Shown piece by piece: positions 20,098 through 37,368 of a stretch of 64,000 nt of DNA (the stretch's first letter is position 1; every line of letters starts with the position of its first letter). This DNA comes from a virus. A program made the translations under genes and the position numbers. Location of the stretch: IMG/VR virus record IMGVR_UViG_3300026488_000015, positions 1 through 64,000 of that record; one strand, given 5' to 3'. A model generated the notes under the pieces. That model was not told the DNA's origin, searched no databases, and saw only the letters and a program-made list of their open reading frames with translations.

Positions 20098-20559
20098 ATG
20101 AATAACATAAGAAATTTTCAAAGAGATACACAAATCGAATTCGGTACACGATTATTCGATGAGGTTATAACATATAATGTGCAGAATGTGCTGTTACCTG
20201 GAATCGATATGGATGATGCTGAAGCCCACACACGAGGTATCAAGGCGCTTATTCAAGGTGATTCAGTGGAATTTCAGGAATTGAGCTTAACGATTATCGT
20301 TGATGAAGAAATGAAAGTATGGAAAGACCTAATGAAAAAAATGTTCGAACATATAGAAATTCCTGATAATACTTTTACTCTTAATCCTGCTGACTCGTGG
20401 ATTACTATAAGAAATTCCAAAGGTGAAGATGTTATGACTGTGACATTTTATGAATCTCACATTACTACAATAGGTTCATTAAGCTACGACTCGACTGGTG
20501 AAGATGATGAACTCATTATGGACATTAGCATTCGTTATGATTACTTTTTAATCACTTAA
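20098..20559 (+). CDS. Probable tail/baseplate protein (tail-tube-like), 153 aa
   Basis: The pattern VQNVLLPGIDMDDAE, GDSVEFQELSLTIIVDEEMK, VWKDLMKKM resembles a family of small T4-type virion proteins with LPGI, GDxLxFxxLxxxFxVDEDLxxW and a beta-rich fold like tail-tube proteins. It is the only gene on the plus strand and has its own late promoter. Its 3' end overlaps the sugar dehydrogenase gene on the other strand by 12 bases. The exact T4 counterpart is unclear to me. Confidence 0.65.
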   Translation: MNNIRNFQRDTQIEFGTRLFDEVITYNVQNVLLPGIDMDDAEAHTRGIKALIQGDSVEFQELSLTIIVDEEMKVWKDLMKKMFEHIEIPDNTFTLNPADSWITIRNSKGEDVMTVTFYESHITTIGSLSYDSTGEDDELIMDISIRYDYFLIT

Positions 20560-21285
20560 TCGTATTCTTTCATTATACCTCATTAAGAATGAAGATAGTT
20601 CGTGTGGTACTGAATTATGTTTTGCTAATAAATCTTTAGGAAAACAAGCACCACCAAAACCCATCTTACCATCTGCCCCTACATTAGACATAATGCCGTT
20701 AGGTAATTTGCTGTATATCTGTGCCAATTTCCTCGTATCAGAATTAAATGTTTCTTGTACAAAATTCCAAAACATAACCTCATAAGCCCCGTGAATATTT
20801 CTAAGGTATTTAAACTCTATAGCCTCTTCCTGAGTACAAAATTCGACTTCATCTACAACTACATCGAAATCAGTATTAAAACACTCTAAGACTATATTAG
20901 CATAGTCTATACGACCGCCTAGAATAAGCAGTTTTTGTGTGCTGAAATCTTTGTAAGAGGATATTTGGTTCAGAAATTCAGGATTAAAAACTATATTAAA
21001 ATCTTTATTGTACATTTTGATGTTATCATATAATACTGTGCTCTTAATAACGATGATGCCATTATACCCTCTCACCTTTTCAAAAAATTCAACGAATGGT
21101 GTTATATTTTGTTTCTCGTTGTCATTCAATGAAGGAAGGCACACAAAAATTATATCCGTTTCAGATAAATCTGTTTCTTTGTGTTCTTCCATATATTTGT
21201 CAAAAATCAATACATCTTTTTTATCTATGATGCTGTTATAGACAGCCTGTCCCACGAAACCAAACCCAGCTATTCCTATTTTCAT
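20548..21285 (-). CDS. UDP-sugar dehydrogenase-like protein, short form, 245 aa
   Basis: Nucleotide-sugar dehydrogenases oxidise a sugar C6 to a carboxylate with NAD+. The NAD site is GIAGFGFVG (4-12), K159 sits in the EFKYLRN motif, and the catalytic Cys214 sits in GFGGACFPKD. The C-terminal UDP-binding domain found in typical members (about 430 residues) is missing, so either this form is catalytically different or another subunit is used. It is the last gene of the radical SAM and sugar island and overlaps the deacetylase gene by four bases. Confidence 0.85.
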   Translation of the reverse strand: MKIGIAGFGFVGQAVYNSIIDKKDVLIFDKYMEEHKETDLSETDIIFVCLPSLNDNEKQNITPFVEFFEKVRGYNGIIVIKSTVLYDNIKMYNKDFNIVFNPEFLNQISSYKDFSTQKLLILGGRIDYANIVLECFNTDFDVVVDEVEFCTQEEAIEFKYLRNIHGAYEVMFWNFVQETFNSDTRKLAQIYSKLPNGIMSNVGADGKMGFGGACFPKDLLAKHNSVPHELSSFLMRYNERIRLSD

Positions 21286-21824
21286 TTCAAATCCTCTATT
21301 GGTATTCGTTCTTTGCCGAATAATCTGTTAATATTATATTTCTTTAATTCTGTTTTTACTAATGGTACCTCGTTGTTGTACGGGTAGCAGTAGCTATCAA
21401 CCGAGATATTATGCTCTTTGAAGGCTTCATTCATATCAGATAAATCTTTCTTTATTATATCATATATTTCCTTAATACCTTGTCGATGGTCTAAGAAAAA
21501 ATGATTATGAGAGTGCCCACCTATTTCTGCATTATCTGAATCGTGGATTTCTTTAATCTGGTCCCAATCCATATAAGCTGAGGTGTCACCATTATCGAAA
21601 AAATTCTTATGAGCCGCAGCACAAGCTATTACCTCAGGATTTTGTTCACCTTCTGAAATAATACCAGTACTCACAAAAAATATGAGAGGTATGCCTAGAC
21701 CCAAGAAAAAATCAAGGTTCAGGTACTGCGTGTACAAGCCATCATCGAAGGTAATCAAATCAAACGATGAAAAATCTACATCAAGCATCCAAGGATGGAC
21801 CTCGTGTATCATTAATGTTTTCAT
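21282..21824 (-). CDS. Polysaccharide deacetylase (NodB/CE4 type), 180 aa
   Basis: CE4 enzymes remove N- or O-acetyl groups from sugars using a metal. The catalytic TFDDG (D27, D28) and the metal-binding HSHNH (H104, H108) motifs are both intact. At 180 residues it is near a minimal NodB domain, with no signal peptide, so it acts in the cytoplasm on a soluble sugar, nucleotide sugar or modified protein. It overlaps both neighbours by four bases. Confidence 0.85.
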   Translation of the reverse strand: MKTLMIHEVHPWMLDVDFSSFDLITFDDGLYTQYLNLDFFLGLGIPLIFFVSTGIISEGEQNPEVIACAAAHKNFFDNGDTSAYMDWDQIKEIHDSDNAEIGGHSHNHFFLDHRQGIKEIYDIIKKDLSDMNEAFKEHNISVDSYCYPYNNEVPLVKTELKKYNINRLFGKERIPIEDLK

Positions 21825-22438
21825 CGTTTGAATACCAATGAAAATTCCTCTGCATACTGGTACCCAAAAATATTACCGATGTGCTTGTGATATTCTCTAA
21901 TGCCGTCTAGTGAGCCTATACCACCAGATTTTATTTCTGTACTGTACTCTGAACACATTTCTAGTTTTTTCTCGATGGTTTCTGTTATATCTACGCAGAC
22001 ATTAAATAACCTAGGCGTAAAATTCCACTCATTGGAACCAGTAACGGGGAAGCTGTATAGTTCTTTAACAGAACATTCTTTCCTTGGTCTACAAACGAGC
22101 TTTACACTCTCTGCTACTGTTTTATGGTCGCGGTGCATATCCGTATCAGAATTTGTATAGACAATATCAGGTCTGAAGGAATCTACCTCATTCTGGATGG
22201 TGTAGGTGACACCGTTAAAAAAATCCTCTAAAGTGAGGTCTTCGGCTTCATAAATCTTATACGAAAAACCTAACGAAAGCATATTTTTTGTGAATGCTTT
22301 CTCTCTAGCAACTCTATCTGCTTTAGCCCTACCTTTACAGAGAACGACAACCTTAATCTCACCTTTAAGTAAAGCGAGAGCTCCACCCATACCTATTTCA
22401 GCATCATCAAGATGAGCTACAACTATTAATGTTTTCAT
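21821..22438 (-). CDS. PIG-L/LmbE-type N-deacetylase, 205 aa
   Basis: PIG-L family enzymes are zinc-dependent N-acetylglucosaminyl deacetylases. The metal motif AHLDDAEIGMGG (H9, D12 region) and the HRDH motif (H102-H105) are present, and the length is typical. A second deacetylase of another family lies next to it, so the island encodes two different ways to make free amino sugars. Substrate unknown. Confidence 0.85.
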   Translation of the reverse strand: MKTLIVVAHLDDAEIGMGGALALLKGEIKVVVLCKGRAKADRVAREKAFTKNMLSLGFSYKIYEAEDLTLEDFFNGVTYTIQNEVDSFRPDIVYTNSDTDMHRDHKTVAESVKLVCRPRKECSVKELYSFPVTGSNEWNFTPRLFNVCVDITETIEKKLEMCSEYSTEIKSGGIGSLDGIREYHKHIGNIFGYQYAEEFSLVFKR

Positions 22439-23334
22439 TTAAGGCTCTTGATAATATCATCGACTGAATATTTAGGCTCGTAGAATGCTTTAATCTTATC
22501 GATACAAGGTTTTCTCTCGTAAATCTCGCCAAAATTAGAGCTAAAATCAACCGAATAATCCCGGTACTCGATGTCATCGGATATTTTGAGAGCTAATTCC
22601 TTGATGCTGATGGAATTTTTATCATTCCCAATATTGTAAATCTCATTATTGTGCTCATCATTCAACCCAAGAAGCGTAAGCATCTCAACGGCATCACGGA
22701 TATCACAAAATGTTCTCGTTTGTTCGCCATCACCGTATACCACTAACGGTTGCTGTTCTTTTTCATTTTTGATAAAATTGGGAAGCACCATACCGTAATC
22801 AGGTAGCTGTCCTGGTCCCACCACATTGAAAAATCTTACGATGACGCTTGGGAAAGAATAAGATTTTAATAAAAATTCCGACATAAGCTTAGCACAAGCA
22901 TACGACCATCGTGCTGTATCAGGAGAGCCTATTTTTAGCGTGTCCGTTTCTTTAGCATTATTCGTTTCGCCGTACACCTCTGAGGTACTAGCGAATACCA
23001 CTTTCTTCTGATACTTTTCAAAGAGAGGAAAGAGGTTATTATTGATACCGAAAGAATTCCTTAAGGTGCTTGATGGATTTTCATCGATGTATTTCACACC
23101 GACTGAGCCTGCTAAATGGTATATCAGGTCGGCTTCTTTGATGGCTGACTCGACATCAGTAGCAATATCCCCACCAAGGTCGCCTTGTATCATAATAATA
23201 TCAGAATCGATATTATTTTCAGTTCTTGAAGTGCTCATATTATCGATTACTGTGATAGTATGTTTATCCTCTTGTAATCTGGTTGTTAGGTTTCTACCTA
23301 TGAAACCTTGTCCGCCTGTTATTAAAATATTCAT
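22435..23334 (-). CDS. NAD-dependent sugar epimerase/dehydratase (extended SDR), 299 aa
   Basis: An extended short-chain dehydrogenase acting on a nucleotide sugar (4-epimerase or 4,6-dehydratase-like). The NAD site is TGGQGFIGRNL, the serine strand is ASTSEVYGE, and the catalytic Tyr-Lys pair is in SYACAK. RFFNVVGPGQLPDYGMVLPN follows as in GalE-type enzymes. It overlaps the PIG-L gene by four bases. The precise reaction cannot be decided from sequence. Confidence 0.87.
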   Translation of the reverse strand: MNILITGGQGFIGRNLTTRLQEDKHTITVIDNMSTSRTENNIDSDIIMIQGDLGGDIATDVESAIKEADLIYHLAGSVGVKYIDENPSSTLRNSFGINNNLFPLFEKYQKKVVFASTSEVYGETNNAKETDTLKIGSPDTARWSYACAKLMSEFLLKSYSFPSVIVRFFNVVGPGQLPDYGMVLPNFIKNEKEQQPLVVYGDGEQTRTFCDIRDAVEMLTLLGLNDEHNNEIYNIGNDKNSISIKELALKISDDIEYRDYSVDFSSNFGEIYERKPCIDKIKAFYEPKYSVDDIIKSLK

Positions 23335-23368
23335 TTATTTCCTTTTGTTTATTATATCTAATTTCCTC

Positions 23369-24379
23369 TTAATAATAACTATCACGATAAAATATCGGGT
23401 CTGTAATTTTTTCGCCTTCTTCGGGTATTACTTTTATATCCATCTTGTTTTCTATCCCATCGCATAAGAAGAAATGCTTACATTCTTTGCACTCTTTTGG
23501 CTTTGTGTACGAATTATTTCTATTCATTTTAGCAGCATCGAATAGAGCCTTAATCGGGTCTTCTCTGTATTCTTCAGCTGTAAGATTGTAGTTATAGACT
23601 GCCATATTCCAATCGTACACATCATAGATGTGCTGATAATAATCGCACACATATTTTTCATACCCTTTCATATAGCAATAAGGAGTATAACGGACATTCA
23701 CTATACAGAAATCTTTCAATAAATCGATAGCTTCGTGGATTTTTGGTGTGACCTCGTTATAATCTATTGGAATCTGTTTACCGGCATCAGACCAGTAATT
23801 TAAGGTCAAAAAATTCACCTCAAAAACATTGAACTGCTTTACAATATCCACAAACCGTTTAAGATACATATAATTTTCGTGAGTAACGGTGCAGTTTATT
23901 CTTACAACAATACCTACATCATTAGCATTCTGAATAGCTTCGAGCATCCGTCTGAAACCACCTTTCTTTTGTACTAATGAATCGTGAAGCTCTTCACTCG
24001 AACCGTGTAAGCTAAATAATATTTCTTTGAGGCCGTGGTCTTTGGATTCCAGTGCGAATTCTTTGTCGGCAAATTTATATCCGTTGGATAATGTTGTAAC
24101 GCTTCGGAATCTCCCGTTACAGTAATCTAAAATTTTAAACCAGTCTTTGTGTATAGAGCTTTCTCCACCACTCAAATCAACCTCTTGGATACCACAATCG
24201 TAGAAATAATCTATTCTCTCTTTGATTATGTTAAATTCTGTTACATCGTTGAGGTGGTCGATATAATAGCAGAATTTACACTCGTAATTGCAGTGAGTGC
24301 CTGTATCTAGCTTAGCTCTTGTGCATATATTATTTTCTGTGTTGTGTTCTAATCTATTTGATACTAGATTGTAATTCAT
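23369..24379 (-). CDS. Radical SAM protein with C-terminal Cys cluster, 336 aa
   Basis: Radical SAM enzymes use a 4Fe-4S cluster to cleave S-adenosylmethionine and start radical chemistry. The cluster motif is CNYECKFC (C30, C34, C37), the SAM-binding glycine motif is SGGESS, and LSNG and SLHGSSEELHDSLV follow in the barrel. The C-terminal CKECKHFFLCDG resembles a SPASM-like auxiliary cluster site. It is the last of nine radical SAM genes in the island. Confidence 0.9.
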   Translation of the reverse strand: MNYNLVSNRLEHNTENNICTRAKLDTGTHCNYECKFCYYIDHLNDVTEFNIIKERIDYFYDCGIQEVDLSGGESSIHKDWFKILDYCNGRFRSVTTLSNGYKFADKEFALESKDHGLKEILFSLHGSSEELHDSLVQKKGGFRRMLEAIQNANDVGIVVRINCTVTHENYMYLKRFVDIVKQFNVFEVNFLTLNYWSDAGKQIPIDYNEVTPKIHEAIDLLKDFCIVNVRYTPYCYMKGYEKYVCDYYQHIYDVYDWNMAVYNYNLTAEEYREDPIKALFDAAKMNRNNSYTKPKECKECKHFFLCDGIENKMDIKVIPEEGEKITDPIFYRDSYY

Positions 24380-24403
24380 TTATACCCTTTATTGCAAAAT
24401 ATA

Positions 24404-25000
24404 CTAATCATTGCTCCATACCCTCATATTATGAATATCTACATAACTACTGTAAGATAACAAAAAATCATCTTGTCGTTTTTTTGTGAGTTGGTTTAGC
24501 AATAACAGCCCTCTTGCTGCATCATCAGGTATCATATTGAAATGATACCCTAGAATAGTTTCTCTAATACCACTCATATCTCTACCGTCCCAAGCCATCT
24601 GCTTAAGCACCTCATAATCTTTTTTGTTATTTAGTAATATTGCTCCACCTTTTCCTATATTAATACATTTCTTCTGTTGGAAACTCAAACATTGTATTTC
24701 GTTGTTGTACATATTTTTTTTGAACCCAACAGCACAATCCCATATATTTGTGTTTGCTAGTTTATAAGTTTCATACCATTGAATATGTTCGAACGACGGA
24801 GTATAACCTGCGTGCATGATAGACATAGGTACACTAAGGTAAGTATTTTGGGGTATAGATATTATTTTAGTATCTGGTTTAAAATATTTTAAACATAATA
24901 ATATAGCATTAGTACAGCTATCAGTGAGCACAACAAATGGTGCTCCAGTAAACTCTGATAGTTCTCTCTCAAACATATCAATAAATTCATTATTATTCAT
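24404..25000 (-). CDS. DegT/DnrJ-type PLP protein, short form, 198 aa
   Basis: DegT-type enzymes are PLP-dependent sugar aminotransferases. The phosphate-binding LTDSCTNAI (26-33) and the PLP lysine region SFQQKKCINIGKGGAI (K111 by alignment with SFxxxKxxxxGxGG) are visible. Typical enzymes have about 370 residues; the C-terminal small domain is almost entirely missing. I use the ATG at 24998-25000, which has an AAGGAT site, and not an upstream frame extension. It could be a truncated relic or a specialised short form. Confidence 0.75.
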   Translation of the reverse strand: MNNNEFIDMFERELSEFTGAPFVVLTDSCTNAILLCLKYFKPDTKIISIPQNTYLSVPMSIMHAGYTPSFEHIQWYETYKLANTNIWDCAVGFKKNMYNNEIQCLSFQQKKCINIGKGGAILLNNKKDYEVLKQMAWDGRDMSGIRETILGYHFNMIPDDAARGLLLLNQLTKKRQDDFLLSYSSYVDIHNMRVWSND

Positions 25001-25913
25001 TAGTATCCTTCGGGTAACGCTTAGTGAACTCACATTCAGTACAGTAATCAAGATGGCAAGTAATAGTTCGGTTCACATTATATAGAGTTTCATTAGAATC
25101 GTTTATATTTACTGGTGTTTTACTCCCAATACAATTATGTGTTTCTACTCTACCATCTAAATAAAAGAATAGAGTATCTGTTTCACACTGGAGGCCTTTT
25201 GTTTTGTATTTTGTTTTGTATATTTCATTGCAATCAAATTCTTCACCATTTATGATTATTATACCATCGCTCTTAAAGCCAAAACCATCATTTGTAAATT
25301 TTTTGACTTCTACTGCATCTATAAATGGTGCAAAGTTTATAGGGAAACCTTCTCTTGTTAGCATAGTACTAACAAGAGATAATTTAGGGGATAATTTAGG
25401 GGTATTATAATCCAGTAAAAGCCTAATATAGTCAATATTATCTTTAAATCTTATTATATTTCTTAATGTTACTGTCATCTGTTTTTTATCAATAACAGTA
25501 TAATGGAAGCTGGGTGTAATAACTATTTTTAGATGTTTATATTTCTCTAAAATATAAGCTATATTTTCGGTTTTTAACATATTAGATAAAATCATAATCT
25601 TATTGTATTTTACATCAAGTTTGCTAAACTCCCCTAAGAAAAAATCTAAAGTATCCACTGTCATAAACGGTTCGCCACCTTCTACTGAAATGAGATTATC
25701 AAATTCGCTTCTTCTGTTAAAACTATATTCAATAAAATTAACTAATCTCACCAAAACTTCTTTGGAAGCGGTTAAACCATTATACATATTCTTATTTTGG
25801 TAGCAGTAGGGGCATTTCAAATTGCAAATATCATTTATCATAAAACCTATTATATTATTAGGTCTAAGGTCTTTTAGAATGTAAGTGTTATTATTTATAT
25901 CACTTGTTACCAT
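24993..25913 (-). CDS. Radical SAM protein with C-terminal Cys cluster, 306 aa
   Basis: The cluster motif is CNLKCPYC (C30, C34, C37) and the SAM motif is VEGGEPFMT. Near the end, a Cys before FFYLDGRVETHNC and then CHLDYCTEC resemble a SPASM or twitch auxiliary cluster. An 11-bp inverted repeat and a 12-bp tandem duplication (giving PKLSPKLS) lie in the middle of the gene. It overlaps the DegT-type gene by eight bases. Substrate unknown. Confidence 0.9.
   Translation of the reverse strand: MVTSDINNNTYILKDLRPNNIIGFMINDICNLKCPYCYQNKNMYNGLTASKEVLVRLVNFIEYSFNRRSEFDNLISVEGGEPFMTVDTLDFFLGEFSKLDVKYNKIMILSNMLKTENIAYILEKYKHLKIVITPSFHYTVIDKKQMTVTLRNIIRFKDNIDYIRLLLDYNTPKLSPKLSLVSTMLTREGFPINFAPFIDAVEVKKFTNDGFGFKSDGIIIINGEEFDCNEIYKTKYKTKGLQCETDTLFFYLDGRVETHNCIGSKTPVNINDSNETLYNVNRTITCHLDYCTECEFTKRYPKDTNE
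25351..25379 (-). repeat. Perfect 11-bp inverted repeat inside a radical SAM gene
   Basis: Arms TCTCTTGTTAG and CTAACAAGAGA are separated by seven bases. In the mRNA this would be a stable hairpin in the coding region. A 12-bp tandem duplication of GATAATTTAGGG directly follows on the plus strand. Confidence 0.8.
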
Positions 25914-25925
25914 TTTTGGCTCCTG

Positions 25926-26855
25926 TTATTCTGTGTAATTGTAATTTCTAGCTGTACCAGTAATACATATAGTTTCATCAAGTACTGGTACTATTTCGTG
26001 TTCGATTAAATCATCTATTTCTTTCTTGACTTTGCTTACGCTTTCTATTGGTATGTGTATGCTTTTTTCTATAGCAATATCAGTCCCGTATAGGTTGAAC
26101 AATATTTTATACTTTTTGGGTATATCCATTCTTTCTAATACTGAATAATAGTCATAATGGTAAAATGAGTAATCTACAAAGGTTATATCTTTATTTATAT
26201 ATGCATTAGTATAGTTTAGTTCTCTAGCATCAACTATAAATCTGAACTTCTTCTCTAAAAGGTATATAGCTATTTCTTCGCAGAAATTCTGAAGTCTATA
26301 ATTTATGACTATATTTTTATGAGCGATACCTTTTTTAGCTATATTTATGCTTTCTTCCAACCATAATCTAGCAAAATCTTGATTCTTTGTGTAAATAAAA
26401 AAAGTGTCATAATGTTCTTTGTAAGATTCATCTAAAAATTTAGTAAAACAGTATGTGAGCATCGATTCTTCTACACTTTCGGGTGTTTTGAAAACATAAA
26501 CATCTTCATTATTGATTTTAGGTAACGATGACACGCAGTAAACATCGGGGTCTAAAAATACATAACCATCTAAGTCTGGATACTCATTAACTACAAAATT
26601 AAATACTTCAGGCATCAGCAAGAAAAAACACTCTGTTTTGTAGTAAAATTTGTTGTTTGTAAGCTCTATATTAAGTAGAGTTACATTATCGTATTTTTCA
26701 ATAAATCTCACAAAAATATCTGGTAGGACTGAATTATTGTGATTGACTACAATAATTCTATGTTCTTTATCAAAATTATTTTTTATAGACTCTAAAGCTA
26801 CTACAAGTTGAGGTATAGTATTTGGGTGGGCCTCTATCGGGAATATGAAGGTCAT
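25926..26855 (-). CDS. Glycosyltransferase-like protein (GT-A, DPD motif), 309 aa
   Basis: A nucleotide-sugar-dependent glycosyltransferase is likely. The region GYVFLDPDVYCV (D102, D104) is a DxD-type metal and donor site like those of GT8-like or related GT-A enzymes, after an alpha/beta start (residues 1-60). A second region with YSFYHYDYY lies further on. No membrane segment is visible. It lies between radical SAM genes with gaps of only a few bases. Confidence 0.65.
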   Translation of the reverse strand: MTFIFPIEAHPNTIPQLVVALESIKNNFDKEHRIIVVNHNNSVLPDIFVRFIEKYDNVTLLNIELTNNKFYYKTECFFLLMPEVFNFVVNEYPDLDGYVFLDPDVYCVSSLPKINNEDVYVFKTPESVEESMLTYCFTKFLDESYKEHYDTFFIYTKNQDFARLWLEESINIAKKGIAHKNIVINYRLQNFCEEIAIYLLEKKFRFIVDARELNYTNAYINKDITFVDYSFYHYDYYSVLERMDIPKKYKILFNLYGTDIAIEKSIHIPIESVSKVKKEIDDLIEHEIVPVLDETICITGTARNYNYTE

Positions 26856-26857
26856 TG

Positions 26858-27769
26858 CTAATCCTTTGTTTTATAATGGTCAAGTGAACTTGCCCATAAA
26901 CAGGAGTTCTCAAATGGGCAAATAATAGGTTTAGTCATATCATATGCTTTGAAAAAATCTAAGTGCGTAAAAATATTCATTGGTTCAAATAAAGTACACA
27001 TCTGTTTTACTCTACCTGAACGGCACTCGATTGTGAAGAATATATAGTAGCATTTCCACCCATAAGTGTCCATAGGTAGCATATCGTGAGTGTATAAATC
27101 ATAATCATTCCATTCTACGCCAAAGTTATCTATGTATTCTTTGGTATTATTTAATTTCATTGTATTTAGTATATAATTGTTAGACTTGAACTTAGAGTTG
27201 ATATAAACAGGCTTAATATTATAATTTTTGTTGTGTTCTTCGGCAAAGTTTTGCATATCAATAATATCATTGTAATATTTCTTGTTTGGGTGTATCATTA
27301 TGTTTAGTTCTACATTCTTTATGGTTAAAAGTTTTTCTTTGAACTCTAAATCTTTTAGTGTATCTGCGTGCCAAGAAATATGATAAACTATATCAGGATT
27401 GATATAGTTTATTTTGTGTAGTTTCTCTGGACTTAATTGTAAATTAGTGTTAATATGCAAATCTTTAATTTTTCCTTCATCTATGTATTTTTGAATGTAT
27501 TCTACAATATAAACGATTTTGTAGTGTAATGTGCATTCCCCACCACTCAAACAGATAGATACTGGATGAGGTATCTTCGCTAGTTCATCGATTACAGCTA
27601 GAACTTCTTTAGTAGAACTAAATTTACCCCAAGTTTCTGAATCATTTCTCATATAACAATAACTACAATGCATATTACATATTTCTGTGATTAACAATTC
27701 AAAAATAAGAAAGTCGTGGTCCTTAATTGCACCTTTACTAGAAAACGATGTTATGTCTTTGTTATTCAT
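26858..27769 (-). CDS. Radical SAM protein, 303 aa
   Basis: The cluster motif is CNMHCSYC (C31, C35, C38) and the SAM motif is LSGGECTLH, an unusual GGEC variant. The C-terminal part has a Cys in QMCTLFEP and a pair in CPFENSC, which may bind an auxiliary cluster. I place the start at the ATG at 27767-27769 (AGAGGAT site), which overlaps the upstream gene by eight bases; an 11-codon extension lies within that gene. Confidence 0.88.
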   Translation of the reverse strand: MNNKDITSFSSKGAIKDHDFLIFELLITEICNMHCSYCYMRNDSETWGKFSSTKEVLAVIDELAKIPHPVSICLSGGECTLHYKIVYIVEYIQKYIDEGKIKDLHINTNLQLSPEKLHKINYINPDIVYHISWHADTLKDLEFKEKLLTIKNVELNIMIHPNKKYYNDIIDMQNFAEEHNKNYNIKPVYINSKFKSNNYILNTMKLNNTKEYIDNFGVEWNDYDLYTHDMLPMDTYGWKCYYIFFTIECRSGRVKQMCTLFEPMNIFTHLDFFKAYDMTKPIICPFENSCLWASSLDHYKTKD

Positions 27770-29389: not shown

Positions 29390-29994
29390 ATTATCTCCTT
29401 TAGTGATAAATTTTTGTTATCTATTCCTTGTTCAAAGAACATATCTTTATACAATTTATAATCATAAATATTTAATAGTTCTTGTAATAATTTTTCATCA
29501 TTTTCGTTGTGATATTTAGTAGGGAATTGTATTTCTGTTTTTTTGAATATAATTTGAGATAACTGGAATAAGGCAAAGTCTCTCGATGTCAATTTATATT
29601 TAGTTTTATTCAAAATATACTCTTTAAACATAAAAACTGTTTTGTTATCATCGTATGCTTTATATAAACCTATATGCAAACTAGACTGGTTTATATTATA
29701 TAATACATTTGCCAAATTCATTATTATATCATCATCTTCTAAGTACATAATATATTCACCAGTACTTAAATCGTATAAGTATTCGTACAAATCATTAACA
29801 TTTGCTGTCGAGTAATAGTAGCGCACTTTGCTATGAGGTATTTCGGTAATATCGTTGCTATCATTATTTACGATTATCTCAAAATCTTCAAAGCTGTTTA
29901 TACTTAATTCCTTTAGTAAGCTGTTTATACACTCTTCAAATAACTTTGGTCTATTATGTGTTAGAATCAGCACACTTAATTTTAGGGCTCTCAT
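29353..29994 (-). CDS. Family 2 glycosyltransferase, 213 aa
   Basis: A cytoplasmic GT-A glycosyltransferase. The start KLSVLILTHNRPKLFEECIN is the typical GT2 opening, FEIIVNNDSND follows, and the metal and donor motif is YLEDDD (D87-D89). At 213 residues it is a minimal catalytic domain with no membrane helices. It lies between radical SAM genes, so its acceptor may be a product of those enzymes. Confidence 0.85.
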   Translation of the reverse strand: MRALKLSVLILTHNRPKLFEECINSLLKELSINSFEDFEIIVNNDSNDITEIPHSKVRYYYSTANVNDLYEYLYDLSTGEYIMYLEDDDIIMNLANVLYNINQSSLHIGLYKAYDDNKTVFMFKEYILNKTKYKLTSRDFALFQLSQIIFKKTEIQFPTKYHNENDEKLLQELLNIYDYKLYKDMFFEQGIDNKNLSLKEIICSNIPKLKITQ

Positions 29995-29996: not shown

Positions 29997-30863
29997 TTAT
30001 TTCTTTTTGTTGAATTTATAATAATCAGAACACCTGCAGCAATCAACTATACAAGTATTATATTGTAATAATTTTTCTGTTGTTATCATAAGCCCCATAT
30101 TTGCACTCGTACAACTATCATAGAAATTGCCGTTAGGCGATATTCTATAAGTAGTTTGCCTACATTGATAGCCTTTGAACTTATGTAGATTCTGTGAGTG
30201 TATTTCAAATTTCTTGAATGTTTTTGTTGTGCCGTCAGAAAAAGCATAAGGTATATCTACTTCATCAGCACCCTCTACAAAATATCTGTTAAAACTCTCT
30301 GGTATTCTATTTTCGTTTTTCCAACCAGTCGTATCTGATAAGAAAGCTGGGCTACTAGGGAACTTAGTATTTTCCAAAACAATTTTACATTTATCAAGGT
30401 AATCATCCAACAAAGAGACTGATATTTTAAGACCGAAAGTTGGAGTAAAATCATATAATTTCTCCATAAATACAGTATCGTATTCAGGATGGTAGGATAT
30501 CATCATATCAAATTTGTCATTTAGCTTATTAAATTGCTCGTAATATTTGTTTGGTTTAGCAAAATTAGTTATTAACTCGGTATTAGTGCAATTAGGTATA
30601 TTTGTTAGTGCCTCTAATATCTCATATAAATCTTCGTGTAGTGTAGGTTCACCACCAAGCACCAAAATAGTAAAAGGCATATCTATTTTTTTGAGTTTAG
30701 CTATTACAAATTTCCACATCTTGTTTTTTTGAATATATGCATCTGGAACTTTATTGCTAGCAAATACATTACAATATGAACATTGGAACTGGCAATAATC
30801 AGTAATAACCCAATTAAATTCTAACACTTTGGGGTCTTTATACCCGGCCTCAATCACTTCCAT
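29997..30863 (-). CDS. Radical SAM protein with SPASM-like end, 288 aa
   Basis: The cluster motif is CQFQCSYC (C24, C28, C31) and the SAM motif is VLGGEPTLHEDLYEI. The C-terminal region has a Cys before RQTTYRISPNGNFYDSC and then CIVDCCRC, as in SPASM domains that hold auxiliary 4Fe-4S clusters in peptide-modifying enzymes. The Cys pairs are more numerous than needed for one cluster. It precedes the GT2 gene with a two-base gap. Confidence 0.9.
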   Translation of the reverse strand: MEVIEAGYKDPKVLEFNWVITDYCQFQCSYCNVFASNKVPDAYIQKNKMWKFVIAKLKKIDMPFTILVLGGEPTLHEDLYEILEALTNIPNCTNTELITNFAKPNKYYEQFNKLNDKFDMMISYHPEYDTVFMEKLYDFTPTFGLKISVSLLDDYLDKCKIVLENTKFPSSPAFLSDTTGWKNENRIPESFNRYFVEGADEVDIPYAFSDGTTKTFKKFEIHSQNLHKFKGYQCRQTTYRISPNGNFYDSCTSANMGLMITTEKLLQYNTCIVDCCRCSDYYKFNKKK

Positions 30864-30872: not shown

Positions 30873-31466
30873 TTATACTAGTATTGTAAGTTTCGGTGTC
30901 TTACTATGATTAAATAAGTTCACTAAATCTGATTTATCTACATTCATTTTATCTTTCACTATGCTATAAATTTTAAACATATTCTTTTTTGATAAGCCAA
31001 CTACATTGTCACCTATATCAGCACCAGTTACTCGTATGATTTTATCATTGTTGGTATCCAAGAACTGACCTAAGTTATGTATGTTATTATCAGTAACTAC
31101 AACCATATAATCTATATTTTTGAAATCAATAATAGGTACATACGCATCAAGATGCTCAGAGCAATGATAATATATATCGTTTATTTCAGTTAAGTAGTCT
31201 TGGTAGTTCTTCATAAACAAACCATTAGTATTTACAGCTATTATACATTCTTTCTTCTTCAGTTCCCTTAGAGTATAAATTAGTATATCTTCAGATACAA
31301 GGCCTGGTTCACCACCACTTAAAGAAACCATAGAACCTTTTTCTATGCTATTAAGGTGTTCTTTTATTGAATCAAAAGTAATCGTAGGTTTATTGTGAGT
31401 ATCCACCACACAAAAGTCACAAAACCAATTACATCTGTGTGTTAGCATTATACAATATTCTTTCAT
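30873..31466 (-). CDS. Compact radical SAM protein, 197 aa
   Basis: The cluster motif is CNWFCDFC (C12, C16, C19) and the SAM motif is LSGGEPGLV, with NTNG further on. At 197 residues it is close to a minimal radical SAM domain, and no C-terminal cysteine cluster is present. Small stand-alone forms are known among activases and QueE-like enzymes, but nothing links it to either. It overlaps the upstream gene by four bases. Confidence 0.88.
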   Translation of the reverse strand: MKEYCIMLTHRCNWFCDFCVVDTHNKPTITFDSIKEHLNSIEKGSMVSLSGGEPGLVSEDILIYTLRELKKKECIIAVNTNGLFMKNYQDYLTEINDIYYHCSEHLDAYVPIIDFKNIDYMVVVTDNNIHNLGQFLDTNNDKIIRVTGADIGDNVVGLSKKNMFKIYSIVKDKMNVDKSDLVNLFNHSKTPKLTILV

Positions 31467-32359
31467 ATAATACTCTTTATAATCTCTATGATACTATCAT
31501 CTTTTTTGAGTTCTATTTTGCTCATTGTTTCTAAATCCTTTATCCGCGCTTCTAATCCTTTATCTATGTAATCAACATCGTATTGGACTCCCAACCCGTA
31601 GTGTTTGCATTCTGCAATAAATCTTGGTGAGCAATCGAACTGCCTTTCTATTGGCGTATAGATGTATTTATTGAATTCAGAAAAAATGTCTTTGACTGGC
31701 ATTTCTATTTGTGTGATTCTATCATCTGTAAATGTTAATTTATTTTCTGAATTTGTTAGTACAAGGAAATTATCGTTGTTTTTCTCTAGTAGTGCTTTAT
31801 AATAATCGTTATTTAATGCCCTACAATTTTTTGTGGCGTATATTAATGTTCTATTTTTGTGTGTCGGGACTTCTTTGAATCTACTAAACAATATTTTTTT
31901 GATGTATTCGATAGAATTTACTTTAGCTCTCTCATAGATTCTGTGGTCTTGTAGAACATAGACATTTTCTTTAGTGTTTTCTTTAATGGGTAGATGACCA
32001 CAGCTGAATAAGAACATATTATCGTATATTATTTTTGTTTCATTTATCTTGTTTACGGCACCATCAGTAAATAGAATATTGTTACAAAGCACCACGAGGG
32101 GTTGCCTACTGAAAACAATTTTATCTGTTATTTGTTTAATTTCGTTATCAGTAAAATTGTATTTGCTTTTGATAGCTACTACATATTCTTCTAATGTTAT
32201 TTTCTCTGCATTTAATATGCAAACATTGAAGTGGTCTTTCAGTAGCCAAAAGTACTCGATGACTTCAAAAGTGTGACCACATATACCTTGGTCGTTGTTT
32301 TTGTGCCAAGAATATGTCAATACTAAATCGTATTGTTTCAGATTTATTATCTTGCTCAT
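31463..32359 (-). CDS. Putative GT-B-type glycosyltransferase, 298 aa
   Basis: The C-terminal part reads KYIYTPIERQFDCSPRFIAE, then CKHYGLGVQYDVDYIDKGLEAR. This has the layout of the C-terminal donor-binding part of GT-B enzymes (R-[FI]-[IV]-x-EA, then a GKE-like step and a final R). The two following genes share the same RxxxEAxYFxxxL core, so the three look like distant paralogues. No recognised family by eye. Confidence 0.5.
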   Translation of the reverse strand: MSKIINLKQYDLVLTYSWHKNNDQGICGHTFEVIEYFWLLKDHFNVCILNAEKITLEEYVVAIKSKYNFTDNEIKQITDKIVFSRQPLVVLCNNILFTDGAVNKINETKIIYDNMFLFSCGHLPIKENTKENVYVLQDHRIYERAKVNSIEYIKKILFSRFKEVPTHKNRTLIYATKNCRALNNDYYKALLEKNNDNFLVLTNSENKLTFTDDRITQIEMPVKDIFSEFNKYIYTPIERQFDCSPRFIAECKHYGLGVQYDVDYIDKGLEARIKDLETMSKIELKKDDSIIEIIKSII

Positions 32360-32367
32360 CTAGTTCC

Positions 32368-33147
32368 TTAATACGCTATAAAATCTTTTGTCACCTTGTA
32401 CTCAGCATCTATTTGGAAGATACTAGCACCCATTTCCATACAAGCTGTATACCGTTCATTGACTGAATCGTTTGTGTCTTCAGCATTGAGGACAACGAGG
32501 CTATTACCAAAATAGAATGCTTCAGGAATTATTCTGTTATTTCGTTCAAGATGCCTAGTGTGGTAGTAGATTATTTCTTTAAAATTGAAAATATCCAAAT
32601 CTTTATTGAAATCTTTGTACACGACATCATATTTTGCTACTTCTTCTATTGTGCTTTTATCGATAGAACCAATACCAAGAGCTAGATGAGAACAAAAGGT
32701 CTTATCTAGGTGTGGTGTCTTAGGTTTCATAAATTGAAAACCTATTTTAAATCGTTCTTTAATATTAAACTTTTGATAATCGTAAAAACCATATACAGAA
32801 TCTTGCTCTCTAGCATTATGGTCACCATCATTAGAATACAGAAAAATTTTATCTATCTTCTGTGTAAAGTTTTGTATTTTATTATAAGTAAAGGTATCGA
32901 GTACTAATGCCTTTTTTGTTACACTCTTAAGCAAATCGATAGGCTTTATCTTTACTACATTATCAAGATTTATTATATCATACTTTTCCTTAATAATACC
33001 TTTAATGACATCTATATCACCATCAAAAATGACGCATAACTGTACATCTTCGTACTTGGAAATATATAAGAAATGTTCTATACAGTAAAATAATATACCA
33101 GTCATAATGAGGTTTGGGTTTACATAGATTATAATTTTTGAATTCAT
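32368..33147 (-). CDS. Putative glycosyltransferase, paralogue of next gene, 259 aa
   Basis: It shares with the upstream gene (33149-33868) the block LVLDTFTYNKIQ, IFLYSNDGDHN, YGFYDYQKFNIKERFKIGF and NNRIIPEAFYFGNSLVV. The last block resembles the end of GT-B glycosyltransferases. The start MNSKIIIYVNPNLIMTGILF is a beta strand followed by a helix, as in such enzymes. Function is inferred from context and fold pattern only. Confidence 0.55.
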   Translation of the reverse strand: MNSKIIIYVNPNLIMTGILFYCIEHFLYISKYEDVQLCVIFDGDIDVIKGIIKEKYDIINLDNVVKIKPIDLLKSVTKKALVLDTFTYNKIQNFTQKIDKIFLYSNDGDHNAREQDSVYGFYDYQKFNIKERFKIGFQFMKPKTPHLDKTFCSHLALGIGSIDKSTIEEVAKYDVVYKDFNKDLDIFNFKEIIYYHTRHLERNNRIIPEAFYFGNSLVVLNAEDTNDSVNERYTACMEMGASIFQIDAEYKVTKDFIAY

Positions 33148-33148
33148 A

Positions 33149-33868
33149 CTAATCCTTAAGGAAATCTTGTATCATTGAATCGCTAGCATCTAAGATGAAT
33201 TCTTCTATCGGGGATTGTAACCTATCTTGAATGCTATCATCAAAATCTAGTTTATTGTCTATTATTAGTTCTTTGTTGAAATATCTTGCTTCAATAACAA
33301 ATCTATTATTAGTATCAAAACCATTATGTACATACTTCCAAGTTTTGTATTCCATCAAATTCATAAAGGTATTAGGTTTTTTTGCGTCCTCTCCATTTAT
33401 TTTATGCATATCTAAAGATGAACGAAAAACCTCATATTTTTCTTCATATTTCTTATGGTATTTTAGCCCTAATTTTAGTCGCTCTCTTCTGTTGAATTTT
33501 TGATAATTATAATACCCGTAAGTGTTTGTAGATACCTCATTATTACCGTTTTCAGAATACAAGAAAATACTATATCTGATTAATGGTTTACATTTAATAT
33601 AGGTATTGGTATCTAATATCAAAACTTTGTCGTTTATTATTTTAAGTAGGTTTGTGTAATTTGAAAATATTATGAATTCGTTTAGTTTTTTATCGTAGTT
33701 ATACTTGGCACTAAACACTTCCATAATTTTACTGAAAGTGGCTTCATCAGTTCTCAATATAAGTTGAGTAGGTTCTATCTCGTTAAGAACCAAAAAGTAC
33801 TCCATAGCATAGAAAAGTGTACCGTTAATGATTTTTTTAGGCATTACATAATATAGTACACTTTTCAC
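33149..33868 (-). CDS. Putative glycosyltransferase, 239 aa, GTG start
   Basis: A paralogue of the downstream 259-residue protein: LILDTNTYIKC, IFLYSENGNNE, YGYYNYQKFNRRERLKLGLK and NNRFVIEARYFNKELII are in the same order. The start is a GTG (33866-33868) after AAGAG; the next in-frame ATG would remove the first strand. Both genes probably arose by duplication. It is likely a cytoplasmic glycosyltransferase of an unnamed phage family. Confidence 0.55.
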   Translation of the reverse strand: MKSVLYYVMPKKIINGTLFYAMEYFLVLNEIEPTQLILRTDEATFSKIMEVFSAKYNYDKKLNEFIIFSNYTNLLKIINDKVLILDTNTYIKCKPLIRYSIFLYSENGNNEVSTNTYGYYNYQKFNRRERLKLGLKYHKKYEEKYEVFRSSLDMHKINGEDAKKPNTFMNLMEYKTWKYVHNGFDTNNRFVIEARYFNKELIIDNKLDFDDSIQDRLQSPIEEFILDASDSMIQDFLKD

Positions 33869-33876
33869 AAAAACTC

Positions 33877-34485
33877 TTATCTATTCATTTTATCGTAAGC
33901 AATATAAAAATCACCGAGAATTTTATCAACCTCTTCTGTATCTTTTGCATTAATGATTTTCTTCACAAAATCAGCACACATATTCCCAAAGTCAATAGAT
34001 GTAGTTACTTTATCTAAGAGTATTAAGTAGCTTTCTAGTTTTTCTATGATTGCTTCATCATCTTTTTCAATAATTTCAATATATTTTTCTTCACGATTAC
34101 TATTAGTGATTACAAACCCTTCGGCAGTAAGTTCATTGTTTAAAACAGTAAAAGAAACAATATCTAAAGATGTCATATTTGCCATATTATATGACATCTT
34201 CTTATTTACTCTCATCATATTAATTTTCTTATATACTTCAAATTCATCTACTGCTTCATCAGAAATATTAATATCCCCTGGAAGTGCTTCATCAGTTATC
34301 ATTTCTTTATTAATAGTGATGGTCTTCCCTTCTGAAAGACCATCACTAATCAACTGATAACTATTATAAGAAAGCTTAATAACTTTATCCTCTCTATTTG
34401 CTAAACCGTCAAACGAACTTTTAGTAGTACCAGTCACTAAATAATGAGTACCTCTATCTTCTACTATTGCTAATTCAAATATCAT
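33877..34485 (-). CDS. Hypothetical protein downstream of the Cys-rich gene, 202 aa
   Basis: A beta-rich N-terminal part (MIFELAIVEDRGTHYLVTGT) is followed by a helical C-terminal part rich in Glu, Asp, Lys and Ile. It has a strong AAAGGAG site and comes directly after the Cys-rich protein gene, so it may be a partner, chaperone or co-substrate of it. No family is recognised. Confidence 0.7.
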   Translation of the reverse strand: MIFELAIVEDRGTHYLVTGTTKSSFDGLANREDKVIKLSYNSYQLISDGLSEGKTITINKEMITDEALPGDINISDEAVDEFEVYKKINMMRVNKKMSYNMANMTSLDIVSFTVLNNELTAEGFVITNSNREEKYIEIIEKDDEAIIEKLESYLILLDKVTTSIDFGNMCADFVKKIINAKDTEEVDKILGDFYIAYDKMNR

Positions 34486-34509
34486 TTTAAATCTCCTTTA
34501 ATTTTATTT

Positions 34510-35010
34510 TTATGCATAGTTACAACCACAATTACCGTGACAAGTACACACGCTGTGGCCGCCGCAGTCACTATTACATATACAATCAGTTCTAAGCGAA
34601 TTGTATAATGCTAACATATCTGATGCTAATTTACTTGCATAAACAATGCTACCAGCAGAGACGGCACCAGTCGAACCGTGCCCTGTGCCGTTTAAATCAA
34701 CAATCAATTTATTAAAATCGTTTGCATAAACAGTATCACCTACAGCGATTCCCGCTGTAGCAGTTGTACTAAAATTATAGTTACCATTCTGATTCCATCT
34801 AGCAATTTCATTAATTGTGTTTGCTCTTAATAATTCTAAATCTGATGCGTTAATTATATTCCCAGCAGTTGCATTTGATAATGCAACTACTCTATTAGAA
34901 GCACAAGATGCTCTATTATACGAGCAACTATCAGTAGTACAATTACTAGTACAATGCGAAGGAGTACACCACCCCGTAGATGTTGCCGCCGTCCCTGAAC
35001 CTACTGCCAT
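34510..35010 (-). CDS. Cys-rich protein, candidate substrate of the radical SAM enzymes, 166 aa
   Basis: The N-terminal 36 residues carry five cysteines at spacings C-x4-C-x3-C-x4-C-x6-C (C15, C20, C24, C29, C36) among Ser and Thr. The last 25 residues carry seven (TDCICNSDCGGHSVCTCHGN, then CGC). The middle holds three units of the type GxxIxAxxLxxL (GNIINASDLELL, GDTVYANDFNKL, GSIVYASKLASD), a pattern I associate with phage virion proteins. The ribosome binding site TAGGAGGA is the best in the island. It directly follows a SPASM radical SAM gene. I infer a modified virion or secreted peptide; a metal-binding protein is the main alternative. Confidence 0.8.
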   Translation of the reverse strand: MAVGSGTAATSTGWCTPSHCTSNCTTDSCSYNRASCASNRVVALSNATAGNIINASDLELLRANTINEIARWNQNGNYNFSTTATAGIAVGDTVYANDFNKLIVDLNGTGHGSTGAVSAGSIVYASKLASDMLALYNSLRTDCICNSDCGGHSVCTCHGNCGCNYA

Positions 35011-35011
35011 A

Positions 35012-36130
35012 TTATTTTCCTCCTAAAAGTTGCGAGAGAGCTCTATCTACTTTTCCAAACGCTTGATAGTAACCACATAAACCGTGAACTTGGTTATCTA
35101 ACCATTTATCTTCGTAAGAATCCTTTTGTGAAGCAGCATAAGATGAAGTAGGACAAACAAAACAAGTAGTTGCTACACAACTTTTGCATTGCTCGTTTGT
35201 CTTAGCTATCATCTTACTAAACTTCTCTCTATCTAACTTATTTATATCACCGTCAAGCGATAAAAGTTTGTGGTTCTCTTTATCATCAAGATATAAAGCA
35301 CCGTGGCACGGGTAGAAATTACCATCTGTGTCAAGTATAGTCATATTCTTACCAGAAGAACAAGTAAATCTAGTATCATCTCCTCTGTACCAACTGAATA
35401 GCATATGACCAAATTCTGAATAAAAGTCTAATTCTAGTGCACTTATTTCTCTAATTGCTTGTTCAAAATAAGGCAAATAAGTATTAGGGTCTTGAAGTTT
35501 TGTATGGTAATCAAGAGTAGGTGAATATCTAACATAGGTCGTTTCGCTATCATATTTTCTTTTTAAATCTCTAAATTCTTTCCATACAGTAACCATATTA
35601 TGCACCTCAGATAAAGGGAGTGTGCTTTTTAGGCTTAATGATTTTAGTCCTGCTTTACTCAACCAATCGAAAGTTTTAAGTACTTTATCGGCTGTTGATT
35701 CGCCTTTATGGTCTATACGGAATTTATCGTTAATTATTCTACCATCATACGATACTTGTACTCGTAGCTTAGAAGCATCAACACTATTAATGAATTTTTC
35801 CATAGTGCTTTGGTTAAAAGCATTAGTATATAAGTGATAATCAATATTATCATAATCGTGGAAATAGTTCATAAGCTCAGTCATAACATAGTTATTAAGA
35901 GTAGGTTCTCCACCCCAAAAATCTACACCAAGAGTATCATATTCTGCTTTAAACCAATCAGACGCTAAGGTTTCTTTAATTTTTTCTATATATTGAGGTA
36001 TATTTTGGTTTACTTGTTTATTATCAACAGCTTTTTCACCTTCAAAACAATATGTACAAGCCATATCGCAAGTCGTTACTGTGGTAATTTCAAAATTGAA
36101 CCCTCCTTTTGTCTGTATTCTATCACTCAT
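35012..36130 (-). CDS. SPASM radical SAM protein (peptide-maturase-like), 372 aa
   Basis: The cluster motif is CDMACTYC (C21, C25, C28) and the SAM motif is FWGGEPTLN. The C-terminal part is a full SPASM-type arrangement: a Cys before SSGKNMTILDTDGNFYPC, then CKSCVATTCFVC and a final HGLCGYY, which would hold two auxiliary clusters. This layout is found in sulfatase maturases and in enzymes that make cross-links in ribosomal peptides. It precedes the Cys-rich protein gene by one base, which makes that protein the obvious candidate substrate. Confidence 0.92.
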   Translation of the reverse strand: MSDRIQTKGGFNFEITTVTTCDMACTYCFEGEKAVDNKQVNQNIPQYIEKIKETLASDWFKAEYDTLGVDFWGGEPTLNNYVMTELMNYFHDYDNIDYHLYTNAFNQSTMEKFINSVDASKLRVQVSYDGRIINDKFRIDHKGESTADKVLKTFDWLSKAGLKSLSLKSTLPLSEVHNMVTVWKEFRDLKRKYDSETTYVRYSPTLDYHTKLQDPNTYLPYFEQAIREISALELDFYSEFGHMLFSWYRGDDTRFTCSSGKNMTILDTDGNFYPCHGALYLDDKENHKLLSLDGDINKLDREKFSKMIAKTNEQCKSCVATTCFVCPTSSYAASQKDSYEDKWLDNQVHGLCGYYQAFGKVDRALSQLLGGK

Positions 36131-36402
36131 TACATTTTCCCTTTCATTGATAGAATATCATCTATTATGGTTTGTAATTCAGCTTCTTCCATTTTATCTG
36201 CTTCAAGTTTTATCTCTTCTAGCATTTTATTACCCATATCCGCCAATATTGCACTCATTTCAGTAGATACTGGTAGCAACTCTACTGATGCCTCCATCAG
36301 TTTTGTAGAAGCCGCAAATAGATGAGCGTTTCTATCATTCTTAGATAAGATAATTTTCTCTACTCTATTAGCAGAATTCTCGTTTAGTGTTTTATTAATC
36401 AT
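36130..36402 (-). CDS. Small helical protein between two SPASM genes, 90 aa
   Basis: A mostly helical protein (MINKTLNENSANRVEKIILS, then ELLPVSTEMSAILADMGNKM and an acidic helix). No cysteines or membrane segments. It lies between two SPASM radical SAM genes and overlaps the next by one base. A small helical adapter or leader-binding protein would make sense there, but it does not show the winged-helix pattern of the usual leader-binding (RRE) domain. Function unknown. Confidence 0.7.
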   Translation of the reverse strand: MINKTLNENSANRVEKIILSKNDRNAHLFAASTKLMEASVELLPVSTEMSAILADMGNKMLEEIKLEADKMEEAELQTIIDDILSMKGKM

Positions 36403-36411
36403 TATGTTCCT

Positions 36412-37368
36412 TTAAACCCAGCTAACTAAATCAGCAATGAGGTCTTTATTTAATTTATTTATATTGCCTACAAGTATACCGTAGATAAACACATACATTT
36501 CGCATAGATATTCTATCGGTTTTTGGTTTTCTAGCTGTTGTATCAGACAACCTTTCTCGCAATATTGGTTTACGCTACAACTCTTACAGAAATCTTGTAT
36601 TGTTTCTGAATTTACTTGCGAATTAAAAATATCTTCTTTATCAAAATATCTGTAACAACTAAAAAATTTATTATCGTGAAATGCTAGAACAGTATCCCCA
36701 GCACCACAATCTTTTGGTGAGTATCCTTTTTTATGGTATCTAAGTATATGAGTTAAAAAATGAATGAAAAATGCTGGTATAGTATTTGTTGATGTAGCAT
36801 AATCCATTAATCCAGAAATATCTTCTTTGGCTTGCTCTATATTATCTTTATGCCATATACCGATATCCCTGACAATAGTAATCCCAGGATTAACTCCAAA
36901 CATATTGTACAATAATTTATGATTATCTTTCAACCCAAACATTGTACCATTCCACATAGCGTGTATTTTCAAATCATCGATAGTTCTAATAAGCTCTATT
37001 AAAGCCGGATGGAAGTCTTTTCCTCGCTCTGATTGCCAAATACCATCGTGAGATACAGAAACAGTCACTTTATTGTCGTTGAATATTTTGATTATGCCCG
37101 GTGCTAGTAGCAACCCATTAGTCATAATATTAGTTTTGAACCCATTACTATTACTGTACTCTATGAATTGTATGACTAAAGGCATTTGCATTAAAGGTTC
37201 TCCGCCCATAATATCAAAAATGTAATTTTCGTTTTCCTCGTATATATCTTCAAATTCTTTCTTAAATGTATCGAATGATATTTTTTCCGTTGATTTTTTG
37301 TCTATTATATAACAGTAAGAGCAGTCTAAATTGCACCCTTCTGATAATATCAGCGATATATGCTTCAT
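36412..37368 (-). CDS. SPASM radical SAM protein, 318 aa
   Basis: The cluster motif is CNLDCSYC (C12, C16, C19) and the SAM motif is IMGGEPLMQ. The C-terminal part has a Cys before GAGDTVLAFHDNKFFSC, then CKSCSVNQYCEKGC and CEMY, the SPASM pattern seen in peptide-modifying enzymes. It is the first gene of the island, behind the promoter at 37428, so it and the next SPASM gene are made before the other seven. Confidence 0.92.
   Translation of the reverse strand: MKHISLILSEGCNLDCSYCYIIDKKSTEKISFDTFKKEFEDIYEENENYIFDIMGGEPLMQMPLVIQFIEYSNSNGFKTNIMTNGLLLAPGIIKIFNDNKVTVSVSHDGIWQSERGKDFHPALIELIRTIDDLKIHAMWNGTMFGLKDNHKLLYNMFGVNPGITIVRDIGIWHKDNIEQAKEDISGLMDYATSTNTIPAFFIHFLTHILRYHKKGYSPKDCGAGDTVLAFHDNKFFSCYRYFDKEDIFNSQVNSETIQDFCKSCSVNQYCEKGCLIQQLENQKPIEYLCEMYVFIYGILVGNINKLNKDLIADLVSWV

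Follow-up and report, generated by a model that had tools for sequence, protein, structure and literature searches.

Introduction

In the ranthipeptide systems PapA/PapB and SCIFF/CteB, a radical S-adenosylmethionine (SAM) enzyme with a SPASM domain is encoded beside a short Cys-rich substrate. PapB forms links between Cys and Asp or Glu and tolerates many Cys-Xn-Asp spacings (PMC9413430). The richness of T4-like phages in radical SAM genes has been interpreted as metabolism or iron-sulfur (Fe-S) biology in PMC2853527, PMC3322345, PMC5332604 and PMC7029224. The Firehammervirus phages CP220 and CPt10 carry 11 and 12 such genes, read as boosting host metabolism, and a Cys-repeat gene of CP220 (gp140) was noted in 2010 only as a 21-bp DNA repeat (PMC2853527). 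The presence of 11-12 radical SAM genes in some T4-like phages has been unexplained since 2010, and such genes are usually filed as metabolic helpers. Here we analyzed positions 1 to 64,000 of the 146,525-base virus record IMGVR_UViG_3300026488_000015 (hereafter the window), in which an island at 20548-37368 (minus strand) contains nine radical SAM genes, sugar genes and a gene for a Cys-rich protein (34510-35010). We show that a conserved cassette, with a specific enzyme gene beside a specific Cys-repeat gene, recurs across very divergent phages, and we propose that the island is probably a tail-fibre maturation cassette. No report of a maturase-fibre pairing was found in the literature searched, which had most subscription papers and preprints outside its scope.

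The locus, whose genes we name by their lower coordinate, shares with the ranthipeptide systems a SPASM enzyme (35012) encoded beside a candidate Cys-rich substrate, an arrangement seen in 33 of 36 loci and, in a reverse search, in 13 of 16. It differs in that the phage substrate would be a fibre protein with a folded core, often with a self-cleaving chaperone, rather than a leader-core peptide, in that the repeats read CxC[NDH]xx or CTC[ND]CNY, and in that the enzyme scores far under the family cut-offs. By analogy, we infer that the system works like a ranthipeptide system, but on a virion protein. CP220 and CPt10 encode homologues of 36412, 35012, 23369, 31463 and 33877, a CTCDCNY-repeat protein and annotated sugar dehydrogenase, epimerase and PIG-L genes, but these are spread over the genome. 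The His-Xaa-Ser system with its HxsB/HxsC pair likewise brings several radical SAM enzymes together, and HxsC is the nearest family to 23369 (8e-22); however, no His-Xaa-Ser repeat substrate was seen here and the 23369 score lies below the cut-off. Hypervariable tail-fibre regions of marine T4-like phages also combine tail fibres, glycosyltransferases and radical SAM genes, but the accessible text on them does not mention a Cys-repeat substrate or a maturase link (PMC7029224).

A radical SAM gene and a Cys-repeat gene are linked across divergent phages

Relatives of the Cys-rich protein are encoded in ten viral loci. In all ten, a homologue of 35012 (35012-36130) lies directly before the Cys gene and a homologue of 33877 (33877-34485) directly after it, followed by a homologue of 31463 (31463-32359). 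Nine of the ten also have a homologue of 33149/32368, nine have 36412 (36412-37368), and in nine a sugar dehydrogenase gene lies upstream of 36412. The best-conserved protein across these loci is the radical SAM protein 23369 (44-61%). The original prediction had named a lack of conserved gene order among relatives as its refutation; we found the order strongly conserved in the ten loci and far beyond them. The recurring core consists of 36412, 35012, the Cys fibre gene, 33877, 31463, 23369 and the sugar dehydrogenase. Most of the other radical SAM genes differ between phages: the island is no uniform unit.

Searching with the 35012 family gave 40 loci, reaching Campylobacter phages, and 36 after the removal of duplicates; 36412 was found in most loci having 35012. 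The Cys-rich gene was the very next gene after the enzyme in 28 of the 36 unique loci, and a Cys-rich open reading frame (ORF) lay at most 3 kb downstream or at most 4.2 kb upstream in 31. Two Campylobacter loci with the Cys-repeat gene ~4 kb before the enzyme gene bring the total to 33 of 36 within ~5 kb. Elsewhere in the loci, only 2 among 644 plus-strand ORFs were Cys-rich. The exceptions were L044, with tail genes after the enzyme gene, and the weak matches L060 and L061.

The linkage was also seen from the other side. The 7-residue repeat, searched for with a degenerate DNA pattern blind to the enzyme, gave matches in 45 stretches, 44 of which encode a Cys-repeat ORF. The enzyme family was present nearby in 13 of the 16 unique pattern loci with at least 4.5 kb of upstream flank, and when whole records were searched for stretches with short flanks, four of the records checked (L158, L174, L172 and L182) contained the enzyme. 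Cassette members recur together even where the enzyme identity is 24-28%. The dehydrogenase, both enzymes, one further radical SAM gene, the Cys fibre gene and a short 33877 homologue are all retained in loci L150, L162, L183 and L193, and low-identity homologues of 31463, 23369 and the GT2 gene are present as well where the stretch extends far enough. Finally, in a tree of 44 enzymes, those with 6-residue and those with 7-residue repeat partners separated, with 2 changes compared to 14 for shuffled labels; one of the 2 is a pattern error at L034, which is of the 6-residue type by eye.

The linked enzyme is a distant relative of peptide maturases

The nine radical SAM genes originally predicted proved real: all encode CxxxCxxC and match PF04055, eight of them above the curated cut-off, and no further radical SAM match was found in the whole 146.5-kb record. 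The prediction of at least two SPASM ends was likewise borne out. In 35012 (PF04055, 36 bits) the Cys residues C257, C275, C315, C318, C323, C326 and C352 fit the full SPASM pattern, and its radical SAM and SPASM Cys are invariant across 10 homologues; the NCBIfam SPASM model scored 26.4 against a cut-off of 27, and one relative passes the Pfam SPASM model. Protein 36412 (PF04055, 49 bits; NCBIfam PapB 5e-17, below the cut-off) has CX2CX5CX3C plus three further Cys.

The best NCBIfam models for 35012 are peptide maturases, namely PapB (NF047865, 5.9e-24), Nif11 and SCIFF (1.4e-14), none at its cut-off. With 84.9 bits against a curated cut-off of 340 for NF047865, 35012 is a distant relative of PapB and not a member of that family. 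Its best solved relative is PDB 5wgg (4.6e-9), which we take to be CteB, the SCIFF maturase. We also considered a bacterial source of the 35012 enzymes, which was not supported: bacterial genomes gave distant relatives (~25% identity, mostly Clostridia) and no close one among the matches listed. Because these bacterial relatives are all distant, the phage enzymes form a group of their own.

The third core enzyme, 23369 (23369-24379), is nearest to HxsC TIGR03977, with 77.5 bits against a curated cut-off of 267.9. It is 41-61% identical across many related loci and 45-47% in 15 Campylobacter phages. A role of the radical SAM proteins in QueE-type base modification was rejected, as QueE was the best NCBIfam match for none of the nine.

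The Cys-rich protein resembles a tail-fibre tip

The predicted Cys-rich protein 34510-35010 is real, with 12 Cys in 166 aa, and the Cys are invariant among its 10 sequence relatives. Its C-terminal end, ...DCICNSDCGGHSVCTCHGNCGCNYA, contains the motif CICNSD-CGGHSV-CTCHGN-CGC with a 6-residue period (residues 143-163; 34522-34584), and an N-terminal Cys patch spans residues 15-36 (34903-34968), where C29 is nearly invariant and C36 invariant in the alignment. The invariant residues of the family are the Cys and their neighbours in DCICNSDCxCNxVCxCxxxCxCNY. In the AlphaFold2 (AF2) model, residues 38-144 form a helical core, and confidence is low for the two Cys-rich ends (C-terminal, 145-166); a fold search with the protein gave nothing significant.

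After the Cys motif, relatives go on with SDxRLK..., the start of Peptidase_S74 (PF13884). In all five chaperone-bearing members tested (L009, L010, L012, L017 and L193), Peptidase_S74 scored above the Pfam cut-off and followed the Cys motif without a gap, and the majority of Cys-repeat proteins run on into this fibre chaperone at that point. In tail spikes, S74 is a self-cleaving chaperone. Because it cuts itself off, the Cys motif would be the mature C-terminus in the relatives, and because it begins exactly where the Cys motif ends, the Cys-repeat proteins would be fibre-tip proteins. The window protein has no Peptidase_S74 and terminates (NYA) at the equivalent of the cleavage site. The original prediction had left open whether the product is a peptide or a virion protein. 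The S74 domain of the relatives and the long tail-fibre gene that precedes the cassette (37465-44355) favour a virion protein over a free peptide. This upstream gene encodes a 2296-aa protein (phrog_8745, 2e-23; phrog_6162, 6e-22; PHROG tail fiber) with homologues at the equivalent place in many related loci, and the island starts directly after it on the same strand.

Distant family members, and likewise CP220 gp140, have long CTC[ND]CNY arrays. The Cys-fibre proteins of six loci (L040, L041, L043, L046, L048 and L057) stop ~10 residues into S74 (SDxRLKxxIxYL), as if a chaperone remnant were still needed. One cassette (L162:4721-7285) has four tandem Cys-repeat fibre genes with differing bodies and near-identical CTCNCNY tips, which suggests exchangeable fibre tips. 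The gene that comes after a divergent 35012 relative in L047 (L047:11124-11627) encodes a different repeat, rich in Cys and His (CHSNCHSDC).

Core genes are shared with Campylobacter phages

Among 50,697 phage records, one set of 15 Campylobacter phage records contains relatives of all four proteins 36412, 35012, 23369 and 31463; the only other matches were a few faecal contigs for 35012 and 23369. The 33877 family, phrog_25260, is CPt10 gp016. A tblastn search with the Cys-rich protein matched no isolated phage, and its Campylobacter relative was recognised among the neighbours of the enzyme match. By terminase, a Vibrio phage (38%) ranks first among the isolates and a Campylobacter phage (33%) comes next; Vibrio phages are absent among the enzyme matches. 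Shared ancestry thus accounts for part of the distribution, but not for all of it. CPt10 gp169 (NC_027996 138920-139345) is a 141-aa Cys-rich protein with a repeat of another kind, CxxC, encoded three genes before the 23369 homologue, and is possibly a second type of substrate.

Sugar genes and accessory proteins

Genes for UDP-glucose-dehydrogenase-like, epimerase, PIG-L and polysaccharide deacetylase proteins recur in such islands and in Campylobacter phages, and many relatives have the dehydrogenase gene immediately upstream of those for the maturases. In the window, the epimerase gene (22435-23334; NAD-dependent sugar epimerase/dehydratase, PF01370, 2e-47) and the two deacetylase genes of different families (PIG-L/LmbE-type, 21821-22438, PF02585, 1e-12; Polysacc_deac_1, 21282-21824, PF01522, 8e-8, and phrog_26430, 6e-26) scored above the cut-offs, as expected from the original prediction, and the GT2 glycosyltransferase gene (29353-29994; PF00535, 2.9e-7) likewise exceeded its cut-off. 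The predicted sugar dehydrogenase (20548-21285) is indeed UDP-glucose-dehydrogenase-like (phrog_9148, 2e-25), although short and with a PF03721 score at the cut-off. The DegT-type call for 24404-25051 received a DegT/DnrJ/EryC1 match (PF01041, 8e-18) that covers part of the domain only; this short protein is aminotransferase-like.

The other glycosyltransferase calls, GT-B for 31463, 32368 and 33149 and DPD-type for 25926, were not sustained, as no glycosyltransferase family matched in Pfam or PHROGs. The 298-aa protein 31463 is conserved (phrog_24441, 2e-33, function unknown; ~35% identity in the 15 Campylobacter phages) and its profile of 19 members matched no PDB chain; it is a possible glycosyltransferase. 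The genes 33149-33868 and 32368-33147 are paralogues of one ~262-aa core-flanking protein and align together to a single gene in relatives.

The 202-aa core protein 33877, which in most loci has a homologue encoded downstream of the Cys gene, has a confident, novel-looking AF2 model (predicted local distance difference test, 90). A profile search against PDB found no match, a PDB fold search nothing below E 0.1, and a fold search among viral models weak matches, including DUF4376 phage proteins. From the position of its gene, we guess that it is a fibre-assembly helper.

The radical SAM gene 29997 (29997-30863; PF04055) and the GT2 gene 29353 are adjacent in the window, and at L017:18941-20401 (minus strand) a GT2 and a radical SAM protein related to 29997 form a natural one-protein fusion. 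This fusion ties sugar transfer to radical SAM chemistry, as judged from the sequence, but does not name the acceptor.

A proposed maturation of the fibre tip and its alternatives

The conserved enzyme set beside the Cys-repeat fibre gene suggests that the enzymes finish the fibre tip chemically. The substrate would be the small fibre protein 34510-35010, with its helical core and Cys-rich ends, the C-terminal Cys repeat forming the distal tip; in relatives, the tip would be exposed on self-removal of the S74 chaperone. The SPASM enzymes 35012 and 36412 would work in the cytoplasm, joining Cys thiols of the repeat to nearby residues by thioethers of the ranthipeptide or sactipeptide type. Fibre proteins would assemble in the reducing cytoplasm, where no disulfides are expected, and SPASM thioethers could lock the Cys repeats instead and so stiffen the tip. 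Protein 33877 would help in fibre assembly or presentation, and the sugar dehydrogenase, epimerase, deacetylases, GT2 and further radical SAM proteins would make a sugar and attach it to the fibre.

The steps of this proposal differ in strength. The gene linkage, the enzyme family, the domain of fibre type and the co-segregation of repeat type with enzyme clade are shown by the sequences. That the enzyme acts on the Cys-rich fibre protein is likely; the support for a modified product comes from enzyme homology of the PapB/SCIFF type and from linkage. A thioether as the product is a tentative assignment. Glycosylation of the fibre, also part of the original prediction, is suggested by the one GT2 gene, the nucleotide-sugar genes and the GT2-radical SAM fusion in a relative, and we regard it as conceivable rather than probable. 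That dedicated phage enzymes covalently cross-link, and perhaps glycosylate, the Cys-repeat tips in many T4-like phages, so that the abundance of radical SAM genes would serve the receptor-binding tip, we consider about as likely as not.

Several observations weigh against the proposed maturation. Protein 35012 is not a member of a named maturase family, because its NCBIfam scores fall far under the curated cut-offs. General Pfam and NCBIfam scans, which included no search aimed at the RiPP recognition element (RRE; RiPP, ribosomally synthesized and post-translationally modified peptide), turned up no RRE domain or leader, and 33877 is not RRE-sized. Three loci (L164, L165 and L187), all fragments, lack the enzyme despite enough flank, and the cassette genes are scattered in Campylobacter phages, though all are kept. 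The co-segregation of enzyme clade and repeat type backs the pairing but proves no action, because co-inheritance of adjacent genes gives the same result. Where PapB uses Asp or Glu, the bulk of the 7-residue repeats (CTCNCNY) have Asn, Thr or Tyr available; since Asn is present in most of the phage repeats, one of these three residues may be the acceptor. For the sugar branch, the glycosyltransferase nature of 31463, 32368 and 33149 is without family support.

The Cys repeats might instead bind metal or Fe-S clusters along a trimeric spike, with the radical SAM enzymes helping to load the metal or acting elsewhere. The T4 gp37 tip coordinates iron through His-X-His motifs, and the CxC repeats stand in a comparable fibre-tip context; S74 chaperones go with trimeric fibres, and both Cys-rich ends are predicted to be disordered without a ligand. 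Metal binding, however, leaves unexplained why a PapB/SCIFF-type SPASM enzyme is linked in 33 of the 36 loci and why enzyme and repeat type co-segregate, and we consider it unlikely.

We judge it similarly improbable that the island is a hypervariable host-recognition region in which radical SAM and sugar genes alter the surface glycan or the metabolism of the host, the vicinity of fibre genes being a side effect of modular exchange. There is precedent, since a pelagimyophage hypervariable region with tail fibres, glycosyltransferases and radical SAM cassettes is read as host-surface change (PMC7029224) and the radical SAM genes of CP220 and CPt10 as a metabolic boost for the host (PMC2853527), and many of the nine radical SAM genes do differ between relatives. 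Yet the same enzyme and Cys-repeat gene pair adjoins across very divergent phages, and the best family matches of the enzyme modify Cys-rich peptides. An effect on host surface or metabolism may be right for the variable radical SAM genes. A secreted modified peptide that kills or signals to bacteria, the fibre-like protein being its mere precursor, would fit a maturase homologous to RiPP enzymes and a small, Cys-rich product, but is very improbable given the folded helical core of the AF2 model, the S74 fibre chaperone of most relatives and the lack of a recognised transporter or leader peptidase among the genes.

The fixed pairing with a Cys-repeat fibre gene supplies these radical SAM enzymes with a candidate substrate, testable in isolated Campylobacter phages. 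If fibre-tip maturation is correct, this would be, to our knowledge, the first case of radical SAM chemistry in the maturation of a virion protein. RiPP-like modification would then reach beyond small peptides to structural proteins, and the natural pairs of enzyme and substrate, with their long repeat arrays, could be used to make stable cross-linked protein spikes.

Setting and remaining genes of the island

The phage is T4-like as judged from its structural and packaging genes, which include baseplate hub/lysozyme gp5, baseplate wedge, tail tube, tail sheath and terminase. A megablast search of the island against phage records gave no match. The remaining genes of the island, like those above, are on the minus strand. 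Between the two SPASM genes lies a gene for a 90-aa protein (36130-36402) with a homologue only in L022, the closest relative, and no Pfam or PHROG match. A short radical SAM protein of 197 aa (30873-31466; PF04055) is present in 2-4 tandem copies in several relatives. The variable part of the island comprises the radical SAM genes 28556-29389, 27762-28526 and 26858-27802, each matching PF04055. They are followed by a gene for a 309-aa protein (25926-26855; no Pfam or PHROG match) and by the radical SAM gene below the Pfam cut-off (24993-25913; PF04055, 25.4-26.5 bits against 29.5).

Just outside the island, a tail-tube-like protein (phrog_45, 6e-18) is encoded on the opposite strand (20098-20559, plus strand). 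The record also encodes a flagellin (G000:C1 100285-101109, plus strand, corresponding to L146:16285-17109) with Flagellin_N (3e-42) and Flagellin_C (1.5e-14) domains. Similar flagellin genes occur in ten phage records only, none of them a Campylobacter phage; the phage might use its flagellin as a decoy or have acquired the gene from a host, and the gene may point to the host group.

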